NCBI GenBank assembly: GCA_947053545.1 | Contig: CAMRSY010000015.1 | Coordinates: forward strand, 1-34,879 | Direction: 5' to 3' | Length of the DNA stretch: 34,879 bases | Origin: an uncultured Clostridia bacterium | GTDB lineage: Bacteria; Bacillota; Clostridia; Christensenellales; Borkfalkiaceae | In this document: positions 18,299-23,490 of the stretch, one piece after another | How positions within the stretch are numbered: the stretch's first letter is position 1 | Layout of the letters: every line of letters begins with the position of its first letter | The notes under the pieces: generated by a model | Database searches by the model: none | What the model was told of the DNA's origin: nothing | The model's input: the letters and a program-made list of their open reading frames with translations, nothing else | Made by a program: the position numbers and the translations under genes

Positions 18299-19426
18299 TC
18301 ACTCCATTATCTCTTTACGGAATTTAACCGTTTCGTTTAAAATATCGGCGGCAGACTGTATTTCTTCAGCCGTTGTTTCGGGGCTGAAACTTATTCTCAA
18401 TATGCCGTCGGCGCTCTCCTCGTCGATTCCGCAAGCTAATATAACCCGCGAATAGCGCTTTTTTTCATTTGAAGAACAAGCGGAGCCCGTGCCGATTATA
18501 AGCCCCTTGTCGTTAACCTCGTGCAAAATTATTTCACCGCGCACGCCTTTAGCCGCAACGCATAATATGTACGGCGACGCACTATCCTCGGAAATTACAG
18601 AAAAAAGCTTTTCATCTAACTTTTGCCTTAAAAGAGAATTAAGCTCCTTAACATGGTTCAAATTATTTTCCAAGCAAGAATATCTTTTAATCGCGGCGTA
18701 CTCAAGCATCTTTATTCCGAAAACGTTTTCGGTTCCGCTACGCATACCGTTTTCCTGTCCGCCGCCGTATATCAACGGCTTTATATGAACGTTTTTGCGT
18801 AAAATCAACGCGCCCGTACCCTTTAATCCGCCTATTTTATGCGCGGAAATGCTGTACATATCTATATCAGCATCTATTCTAAAATGAATTTTACCAAACG
18901 CCTGCACTCCGTCGGAATGAAAAAGCGCGCGTATATTGATGGCTTTAACCGCATGCGCAATAGCGTTAACATCGTTTACCGCGCCCGTTTCGTTATTGAC
19001 ATGTATTACGGAAACAAGGGACGTTCTTTCGTCAATCAACGACAGTAAACACTGCACGTTAACGCTGCCGTCACTGTTTAAAGGGGCAAATCTTACCTCT
19101 ATACCGCGTTCTTTAAGTTCGTTTGCCGCGGCATAAACCGCCGAATGTTCGCCGAACGTTGTTACGATATTGCCGCGTTTTGCACCGCAGAACAGCGCCT
19201 GATTGTCTGCCTCTGTACCGCACGACGTGAATATTATATTGAAATCTCTGTCGTTCGCCACAGTATTTAATATGTCCGAACGCGTTTTTACAAGTTCTTT
19301 ATGCAAAGCATAACCTTCCGCATATAATGCGGAAGGATTATAAAATTTTTGTTTTAAGTATTGCGCGGCAATCTCAAGACAAACTTCGTCAGGTTTGGTC
19401 GTAGCCGCATTGTCAAGATAAATCAT
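18299..19426 (-). CDS. cysteine desulfurase, NifS/NifZ-like partner of ThiI
   Basis: This PLP enzyme removes sulfur from cysteine and carries it as a persulfide. The 375-residue protein opens with YLDNAATTKP. HSDGVQAFGKI supplies the Asp and Gln that position the cofactor, SAHKIGGLKG supplies the Schiff-base Lys, and GTGSACSS holds the persulfide Cys317 on a short loop. Its position directly before thiI suggests a desulfurase dedicated to tRNA 4-thiouridine (NifZ in Bacillus), not the general IscS or SufS; that is inference from context. The start overlaps the carB stop by one base (TAATG). Confidence 0.93.
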   Translation of the reverse strand: MIYLDNAATTKPDEVCLEIAAQYLKQKFYNPSALYAEGYALHKELVKTRSDILNTVANDRDFNIIFTSCGTEADNQALFCGAKRGNIVTTFGEHSAVYAAANELKERGIEVRFAPLNSDGSVNVQCLLSLIDERTSLVSVIHVNNETGAVNDVNAIAHAVKAINIRALFHSDGVQAFGKIHFRIDADIDMYSISAHKIGGLKGTGALILRKNVHIKPLIYGGGQENGMRSGTENVFGIKMLEYAAIKRYSCLENNLNHVKELNSLLRQKLDEKLFSVISEDSASPYILCVAAKGVRGEIILHEVNDKGLIIGTGSACSSNEKKRYSRVILACGIDEESADGILRISFSPETTAEEIQSAADILNETVKFRKEIME

Positions 19427-22400: not shown

Positions 22401-23490
22401 CAAACGGCCACTTTGGCAACTTGATTACCACATAGTCGATCGTAGGCTCGAAACAGGCATATGTTTTGCCGGTAACGTCGTTTTTAATTTCGTCCAGCGT
22501 GTAGCCGAGCGCAATTTTGGTTGCAACTTTGGCAATGGGATAACCCGTCGCTTTGGAAGCAAGCGCCGATGAGCGCGACACGCGGGGGTTAACCTCGATA
22601 ACCGCATATTCGAAACTGTCGGGGTCGAGCGCGAATTGGCAGTTACATCCGCCCTCTATACCCAACTCGCTTATTATATGAAGCGACGCGGTACGCAGCA
22701 TCTGATATTCCTTATCCGACAGGGTCACCGCAGGCGCAATAACAATACTGTCGCCGGTGTGCACGCCTACGGGGTCGAAATTTTCCATCGAACATACCGT
22801 AAGCACATTGCCGTTGCTGTCGCGCAGAACCTCGAATTCGATTTCCTTCCAGCCGCCGATGTATTTTTCAATTAATACCTGCGTAATAGGCGAAAGCATA
22901 AGGCCATTATGGGATATAACTCTTAACTCTTCCTCGTTGTAAGCAACGCCGCCGCCGGCGCCGCCGAGAGTATATGCGGGGCGGACAATTACGGGATAGC
23001 CGCCTATTTTTTCGGCTACCGCTACACACTCGTCAACGGTGTAAGCTATGTCGGAAGGCACGACGGGCTGATTTATTTTTTCCATCGTCTCTTTGAAAAG
23101 CTCTCTGTCTTCGGCTCTGTCGATCGAATCGAGATTTACGCCTATAAGCTTACAGCCGTATTTTTCTAAAAAACCTTCTTTGGCAAGCTGACAGCCAAGC
23201 GTAAGACCCGTCTGTCCGCCCAGCGAAGCCAGAAGACTGTCGGGCCGCTCTTCTATTATAATTCTTTTTAATGTATCGGCGGTTAACGGCTCGAGATATA
23301 TTTCGTCCGCAAGCGCCTTATCGGTCATAATTGTGGCAGGATTGCAGTTGCAAAGAACGACGTTTATACCCGCGTCTTTCAATACACGGCACGCCTGCGC
23401 GCCGGCGTAGTCGAATTCCGCCGCCTGACCTATAACTATAGGACCCGAACCTATAACCAAAACTTTTTTAATATCTTCTCTCTTAGGCAT
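19426..23490 (-). CDS. carB: carbamoyl-phosphate synthase large subunit fused to a degenerate DapF-fold domain
   Basis: CarB makes carbamoyl phosphate from bicarbonate, two ATP and ammonia supplied by CarA. Residues 1 to about 1065 match the whole CarB: first ATP-grasp half ([21 protein letters not shown] onward), second half ([21 protein letters not shown] onward) and the C-terminal MGS-like allosteric domain ending [15 protein letters not shown]. A short linker leads at about 1076 into a full-length DapF fold (279 residues): [38 protein letters not shown]. The reading frame is continuous. The DapF first catalytic motif (normally MCGNGIRC) is L-A-A-N-P-I-R-C, so the Cys is Ala1148; the second Cys (1296) remains. 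Epimerase activity is therefore doubtful. The start overlaps carA by 8 bases. Confidence 0.96.
   Translation of the reverse strand: [1354 protein letters not shown]

Follow-up and report, generated by a model that had tools for sequence, protein, structure and literature searches.

A CarB-DapF fusion protein of Clostridia with a DapF domain that has lost a catalytic residue and may be a regulatory or assembly part of carbamoyl-phosphate synthetase

Carbamoyl-phosphate synthetase (CPSase) is a textbook allosteric enzyme that stands where arginine and pyrimidine synthesis branch. Here we describe a gene, carB::dapF, that joins CarB of CPSase to a domain of the lysine-pathway enzyme diaminopimelate (DAP) epimerase, DapF. 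It lies in a stretch of 34,879 nucleotides (the window) from an uncultured gut Clostridia bacterium of the family Borkfalkiaceae (assembly GCA_947053545.1, contig CAMRSY010000015.1). Both halves of the fusion are textbook families. As far as we searched, their combination and the repeated loss of the catalytic base described below are undescribed: we found no description of a CarB-DapF fusion in the open-access papers searched, subscription papers being outside that coverage.

In E. coli CPSase the MGS domain is where the effectors ornithine (at the interface), UMP and IMP bind, and the balance of heterodimer and tetramer responds to effectors (PMC6245113). DapF forms dimers in which each two-lobed subunit closes like a clamp on DAP (PMC5296763). 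In C. glutamicum DapF, both catalytic cysteines and the equivalents of Asn64, Asn75, Asn157, Asn190, Glu208, Arg209 and Thr219 contact DAP, and the C83A and C221A mutants, like further binding-residue mutants, lose activity almost completely (PMC5296763). An inactive E. coli DapF, DapF(C73&217A), still binds and activates RppH (PMC4227774). Apart from these mutant names, DapF residue numbers below are those of H. influenzae DapF, and we assigned them to alignment columns ourselves.

We found that the DapF domain in the window lacks the first catalytic cysteine and that many related fusions still have it. The best overall explanation, which we favor with modest confidence, is that a once-active CarB-DapF fusion now carries its DapF part as a non-catalytic regulatory or assembly domain of CPSase.

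The fusion gene and its DapF domain

The initial annotation placed CarB and a DapF fold in one unbroken polypeptide. This was borne out: a single frame of 1354 amino acids (aa) spans both, with DapF from residue 1076. That annotation overlooked the strand (minus), the missing catalytic cysteine and a second, canonical DapF in the genome. Frame 1 of the plus strand over 19426-23490 contains many stops and is not open. The parts of the gene are as follows.

19426..23490, minus strand: carB::dapF fusion gene, one 1354-aa frame, stop codon at 19426-19428
20275..23490, minus strand: CarB part, residues 1-1072, with two ATP-grasp halves, oligomerisation domain, MGS-like domain and tail (Pfam CPSase_L_D1/D2/D3 and MGS)
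20389..20448, minus strand: MGS stretch where fusions with intact DapF carry a K-G-R..P..D....R-R motif (alignment)
20266..20274, minus strand: linker TEK joining the CarB tail to the DapF domain, without a stop and without a start codon at the DapF start
19429..20265, minus strand: DapF domain, residues 1076-1354, first catalytic cysteine gone (TIGR00652)
20044..20049, minus strand: Ala1148 in place of catalytic Cys73 and Ala1149 in place of Gly74 (alignment)
19684..19686, minus strand: Phe1269 in place of recognition residue Asn190 (alignment)
19627..19629, minus strand: Lys1288 in place of recognition residue Arg209 (alignment)
19603..19605, minus strand: Cys1296, the second catalytic cysteine (Cys217), kept (alignment)

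The CarB part has what defines the family: two ATP-grasp halves and the oligomerisation and MGS domains in one chain, a score above the cut-off (1394.8 bits to TIGR01369, cut-off 1027, residues 2-1052), and an adjoining carA. The DapF domain scores 206.4 bits to TIGR00652 (cut-off 114.65) over residues 1079-1352. It matches 17 distinct PDB sequences, 16 named DapF and one O-ureido-serine racemase; the sequence match to 2otn_A has E=5.8e-53. The junction DNA, aataccgaacttgtagacattaataaacttagaacggaaaaactgaaacttgatttctgcaaaatg, contains neither a stop nor an ATG at the DapF start.

The window's genome is a draft in 43 contigs, and a missed stop or frameshift could in principle create such a frame. 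We compared 37 genomes of the genus, the window's included. In 29 of these there was a single frame matching query residues 1-1354 with the same junction, in open frames of 1342-1385 aa without stops. Four had partial CarB matches (G005, G018 and G019 at contig ends; G022 with residues 1-334 only), and four had no CarB match (G009, G016, G017 and G034). None of the 37 showed a CarB that stops before the DapF part, and the junction recurs across many families. Because the same uninterrupted frame is present in independent assemblies of the genus, the fusion is neither chance nor an assembly error, and the probability that it is an assembly or annotation artefact is negligible. The initial annotation had named a stop at the junction and absence from close relatives as grounds for dropping the fusion; the assemblies examined gave no sign of either.

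The fused domain has lost residues that DapF needs. Where intact DapF has the motif MCGNG.RC or MCGNA.RC, the window domain reads LAANPIRC, so that only one of the two catalytic cysteines that define DapF is present: Cys73 is Ala and Cys217 is kept. Of the six recognition residues (Asn64, Asn75, Asn157, Asn190, Glu208 and Arg209) four are kept, as is Asn11, and Thr219 has become Ser. Elsewhere in the genome is a canonical stand-alone dapF (267.8 bits); dapL (TIGR03542, 490.8 bits, cut-off 364.7) follows it on that strand after ~1.7 kb. The residue changes and this second dapF led us to reject the fused domain as the organism's working DapF. The notion that the stand-alone dapF is a copy of the fused domain was unsupported, as 19 of 19 stand-alone domains of the window's family in the tree described below fall outside the fused clade.

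It is very improbable that the fused domain is an active DAP epimerase here despite the missing Cys73. The domain has a complete fold and exceeds the TIGR00652 cut-off, but the equivalent C83A mutant is almost inactive, the equivalents of the replaced Asn190 and Arg209 contact DAP, and an intact dapF lies elsewhere in the genome. Loss of catalysis in the window domain is well supported by its sequence, and judged by the published mutants the domain is very probably dead as an epimerase.

The domain is still under purifying selection. Among Cys-less DapF domains of the genus, the median ratio of nonsynonymous to synonymous substitution rates (dN/dS) was 0.13 over 25 pairs, inside the range of 0.06-0.22 for intact stand-alone dapF (six pairs), while the CarB part of these genes gave 0.05; these values are rough because dS is high. 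For some pairs dS was undefined, which left the filter and medians unaffected. With an essential residue lost and its fold and frame kept under purifying selection, the domain looks, by sequence, like a pseudoenzyme.

Spread, origin and repeated loss of Cys73

The fusion occurs throughout the window's family, and at least eight further families of that order have it in frames of more than 1300 aa. Samples of 391 Clostridia genomes (class-wide) and 398 genomes (phylum-wide) gave at least 49 and at least 19 fused frames, respectively, of at least 1314 aa. In a scan of named genomes, 71 of the 80 best loci (from at least 596 stretches) were fused. Among these 80, most fusions came from metagenome-assembled genomes (MAGs) titled Clostridia, Clostridiales, Oscillospiraceae or Ruminococcus. 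Two carriers are not MAGs: Ruminococcus sp. FC2018 (L253), with Cys73 kept, and Neglectibacter sp. X58 (L272), with Gly at 73. A further fusion (L281) is in a MAG titled Spirochaetaceae, where mis-binning or horizontal transfer is possible. A plasmid search gave no fusion among the 10 records listed of 310 with a match. Given its presence across families and in the class and phylum samples, we rejected the idea that the fusion is a rarity of the window's genus. It had initially been described as not a standard gene architecture, which is right for the CarB and DapF families in general and wrong for Clostridia, where it is widespread.

We surveyed Cys73 in 272 distinct DapF domains (279 rows minus 7 near-duplicates), fused to CarB or not; both groups hold many close relatives. 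Of 220 CarB-fused domains, 79 had Cys73 and 141 did not. The replacing residue was Ala (89), Gly (36), Ser (13) or Val, Thr or Phe (1 each). Cys73 was lost in 0 of the 52 non-CarB domains, a sample biased towards intact domains because it was picked mostly from the best-scoring matches. Cys217 is present in 31/32 same-genus and 99/109 other Cys-less domains; both catalytic cysteines are gone in 11/141 (L090, L092 and L093 of f203, L192 = G1097, and seven others). Outside the window's genus, 100 of the 109 Cys-less domains retain all six recognition residues. The genus itself is nearly uniform in other states: Ala73 (31/32, with Ser in 1/32), Ala74 (31/32), Phe or Tyr at 190 (32/32) and Lys209 (31/32). 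Position 208 varies (Glu 18, Asp 9, Gly 4, Asn 1).

One of the 52 non-CarB domains, an intact DapF (286.2 bits), forms the C-terminal part of an 817-aa frame in L068 (G362) at 2084-4534 (plus strand); what precedes it in the frame is not CarB. No other NCBIfam model matched the first 540 residues at 1e-20. This is perhaps another DapF fusion, or merely a long frame before the start.

We found that nearly all fused domains group together. In a tree of 207 domains (column 73 excluded, midpoint root), 153 of 155 fused rows were in one clade of 157 rows (support 99), along with four stand-alone rows. The two fused rows outside it (f91 g306) look like a second fusion; L167 and L168 (G872 and G823) have a seemingly independent second fusion of CarB and DapF with catalytic residues intact. 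By parsimony, Cys73 changed at least 9 times on this tree and at least 12 times on one of 271 rows, several of the changes sitting on weakly supported branches. A truncated fused row (G898) was left out of both trees and counted as intact in the survey. Identity of the CarB tail and of DapF among fused proteins was correlated (r=0.68 over 11,781 pairs), as expected of a unit inherited together.

Unfused relatives suggest how the fusion arose. The clade adjoining the fused clade (joint support 88) contains the DapF of G691, whose gene is separate but directly after carB. The order carA-carB-dapF-pyrG-dapL in L292 (same genome region in L303) is the one that would be expected just before fusion. 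There, a CTP synthase gene (TIGR00337, 831.2 bits) lies between dapF and dapL (4611-8322), a further link between pyrimidines and DAP. Two other loci have unusual arrangements. In L305 (G911; 2244-7054), a stand-alone dapF that nests in the fused clade comes directly after carA and before a dapL-like gene; this looks like a former fusion that has lost its CarB part. In L267 (2-6385), a carB::dapF with Cys73 has another dapF, this one stand-alone, immediately after it, and then a dapL-like gene.

Genome content differs between intact and Cys-less fusions. Content was known for the genomes of 42 intact fused rows (nine of unknown content were left out). In 19 of the 42, neither another DapF nor a DAP dehydrogenase (Ddh) was detected, which leaves the fused domain as the only detectable origin of meso-DAP there. 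In contrast, a second DapF or Ddh was present for 98 of 104 Cys-less rows. Some genomes with two DapF were scored by the number of matches, with the second sequence unread; G010, G036 and G042 have a second match that is incomplete or fragmented. In G642 and G889, a stand-alone DapF was found once the threshold (earlier 1e-40) was relaxed. Cys-less genomes without a second DapF proved poor counter-examples, since 15 of the 21 counted here have DAP dehydrogenase.

Gene order differs as well. Among rows with enough flank, dapL is downstream of 30/48 intact versus 0/36 Cys-less fusions, and arginine genes are upstream of 0/13 intact versus 32/35 Cys-less fusions (most other rows had too little flank). 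Four dapL genes checked (window genome, L253, L292 and L058) were above the TIGR03542 cut-off; at other loci, genes are called dapL when they score >100 bits against the copy in the window genome. TIGR03540, the first DapL model, gave no match above cut-off in 20 genomes.

Since in many relatives the fused domain has all the catalytic residues checked, is often beside dapL and can be the only DapF, the fusion was most likely an active epimerase at its origin. It is likely that the window's fusion descended from an active one.

Possible roles of the retained domain

Only one CarB was detected in the window genome (85.55% complete), and aspartate carbamoyltransferase, pyrB, is present (280.6 bits, above cut-off), so the fusion enzyme is predicted to feed both the arginine and pyrimidine pathways. 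A third carbamoyltransferase-like gene besides argF and pyrB, at G000:C1:122481-123371, scores 140.2 bits to the pyrB model, below the cut-off.

The MGS domain has changed in the window's genus. Nearly all intact fusions keep the K-G-R..P..D....R-R motif (Pro and Asp in 52/52, the two Arg in 52/52 and 51/52). It is lost in 31/31 same-genus rows, which have His-His instead of Arg-Arg. Other conserved MGS positions were tentatively assigned as K954, T974, T977, K993 and T1042: the presumed equivalents of K954, T974 and T1042 are present in 31/31 rows and that of T977 in 30/31, with Arg at that of K993. We infer that the lost motif is part of the nucleotide site. Outside the window's family, 20 of 35 Cys-less fusions keep K-G-(R/K)..P..D....R-R. 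The loss of Cys73 and the loss of the MGS motif are thus separate, and we rejected a tie between them.

We propose the following history. Loss of the carB stop codon in an ancestral operon of the carA-carB-dapF-pyrG-dapL type would have given an active fusion protein. In lineages with a further supply of meso-DAP, through a stand-alone DapF or DAP dehydrogenase, the fused domain could lose its Cys73 base, and would have done so several times. The Cys-less domain would then have stayed in CPSase without a catalytic role, most likely to dimerise the enzyme under the control of a ligand and so, beside MGS, be able to set its oligomeric or allosteric state. The clamp-dimer fold of DapF, and its activation of RppH without the cysteines, suggest by analogy that a Cys-less domain behind CarB could be such a module.

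The putative ligand may differ among lineages. Outside the window's genus, the unchanged recognition residues of most Cys-less lineages point to DAP or a close analogue. Within it, the changes of Asn190 to Phe or Tyr and of Arg209 to Lys suggest that the ligand is probably not DAP; it is more likely that the domain binds something new or is mainly structural. The initial annotation proposed a new ligand sensor or assembly module. As the original role of the domain this is unlikely, because the fused domains of many relatives are intact. For the window's lineage the proposal gains support from the lost cysteine, the stand-alone DapF and purifying selection in frame.

A rival explanation, which we consider rather unlikely, is passive retention: a dead domain without regulatory function, kept because folding or stability of CarB depends on it or because truncation is mildly harmful, and drifting within the limits of its fold. 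Several observations favor this. No domain of the window's genus (0/32) retains all six recognition residues, and pocket positions there are kept less than other invariant positions (0.685 vs 0.757). The domain also changes faster in this genus: at a CarB-tail identity of 0.90-0.97, mean DapF identity is 0.63 (283 pairs), compared to 0.78 for other Cys-less (90 pairs) and 0.85 for intact fusions (14 pairs). The MGS domain has changed too. Faster change and pocket loss fit weak constraint as well as a new ligand. Further points count against our favored explanation. dS is high, and one of the 25 pairs is at a dN/dS of 0.40 (the maximum). Six Cys-less rows are without detected backup (G312, 96% complete, and five genomes 65-87% complete). 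After correction for kinship, none of three tests of these associations ran in the wrong direction, but independent contrasts were too few for significance in any. Finally, CPSase regulation in E. coli is unaffected by oligomerisation itself (PMC6245113).

Other observations speak against passive retention. Truncation was seen in 0/29 full-length same-genus fusions (these 29 were selected as matching to the end; no shorter CarB was seen), and dN/dS is ~0.13. Outside the genus, pocket residues of Cys-less domains are kept slightly more than other invariant positions (0.955 vs 0.914), and the altered pocket within the genus is nearly uniform. On balance, it is reasonably probable that the domain was kept for a regulatory or assembly function rather than passively.

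Alternatively, the domain might still be catalytic but with changed chemistry that relies on Cys217, either by itself or together with some other group (as another racemase, a lyase or a dehydratase). In the wider fold superfamily, other members use one cysteine and another residue, and Cys217 is widely kept among Cys-less domains. However, position 73 is mostly Ala or Gly (125/141), which are incapable of acting as base or nucleophile, and some Cys-less domains have lost both cysteines. We regard this alternative as improbable.

A more far-reaching version of the regulatory reading is doubtful, and we offer it as speculation. In the CPSase of many Clostridia, an active fusion would first have linked cell-wall and lysine synthesis to the enzyme of arginine and pyrimidine synthesis. 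Loss of the base, at least nine times by parsimony, would then have made the domain a sensor of diaminopimelate that adjusts the supply of carbamoyl phosphate. The pocket in the window's genus would have been re-specialised for a different ligand, and control may have passed to it from a weakened MGS domain.

The fusions are of wider interest. Those with intact DapF, together with others that lack little beyond the base, form an unusually complete natural series from enzyme to pseudoenzyme. The fusion also points to a possible link of cell-wall and lysine precursors with nucleotide and arginine supply, and the unfused gene order also holds CTP synthase. For annotation, a DapF match in these genomes may not mean a working DAP epimerase, and elsewhere the only DapF detected sits hidden at the end of CarB.

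Neighbouring genes and comparison with known systems

The fusion gene is the last of a one-strand run, argG-argC-argJ-argB-argD-argF-carA-carB::dapF, and two further genes follow on the same strand.

24602..31031, minus strand: argF, argD, argB, argJ, argC and argG, upstream of carA (profile matches)
23483..24556, minus strand: carA, CPSase small subunit, overlapping the carB start (TIGR01368, 421.5 bits)
18299..19426, minus strand: NifS/IscS-like cysteine desulfurase immediately downstream, overlapping the fusion stop codon by one base (TIGR03402, 282.8 bits, below cut-off)
17143..18297, minus strand: thiI, tRNA 4-thiouridine synthase, downstream of the desulfurase (TIGR00342, 355.2 bits)

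The desulfurase and ThiI (17143-19426, minus strand) are a tRNA-thiolation pair attached to the arginine operon, and they directly follow the fusion also in the three same-genus loci included here (L031, L032 and L035). ArgC (28819-29751, minus strand) is above the cut-off of TIGR01851 (373.6 bits) and below that of TIGR01850 (181.5 bits, cut-off 233.6). A 543-aa protein at 32710-34341 (plus strand) has a weak PadR-like match (68.1 bits, below cut-off).

Compared with known families, the window protein is a full-length CarB (TIGR01369), with both ATP-grasp halves, D3 and MGS, and carA directly upstream. It differs in the 279-residue DapF domain added past the natural C-terminus and in the changed MGS motif. 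That domain is a complete DapF fold (TIGR00652) that keeps Asn11, Asn64, Asn75, Asn157, Glu208 and Cys217. It differs from DapF in its place behind CarB and in the changes Cys73 to Ala, Gly74 to Ala, Asn190 to Phe, Arg209 to Lys and Thr219 to Ser.

Two described systems resemble the proposed role. In E. coli DapF-RppH (PMC4227774), a DapF fold modulates another enzyme and the catalytic cysteines are dispensable; there the proteins are separate and wild-type DapF is still an enzyme, whereas in the window the link is covalent and the first cysteine is gone. The trypanosomal AdoMetDC prozyme (PMC5201418) is likewise a dead enzyme fold retained as the regulator of an enzyme. The prozyme is a paralogue of its partner, whereas DapF and CarB are unrelated.

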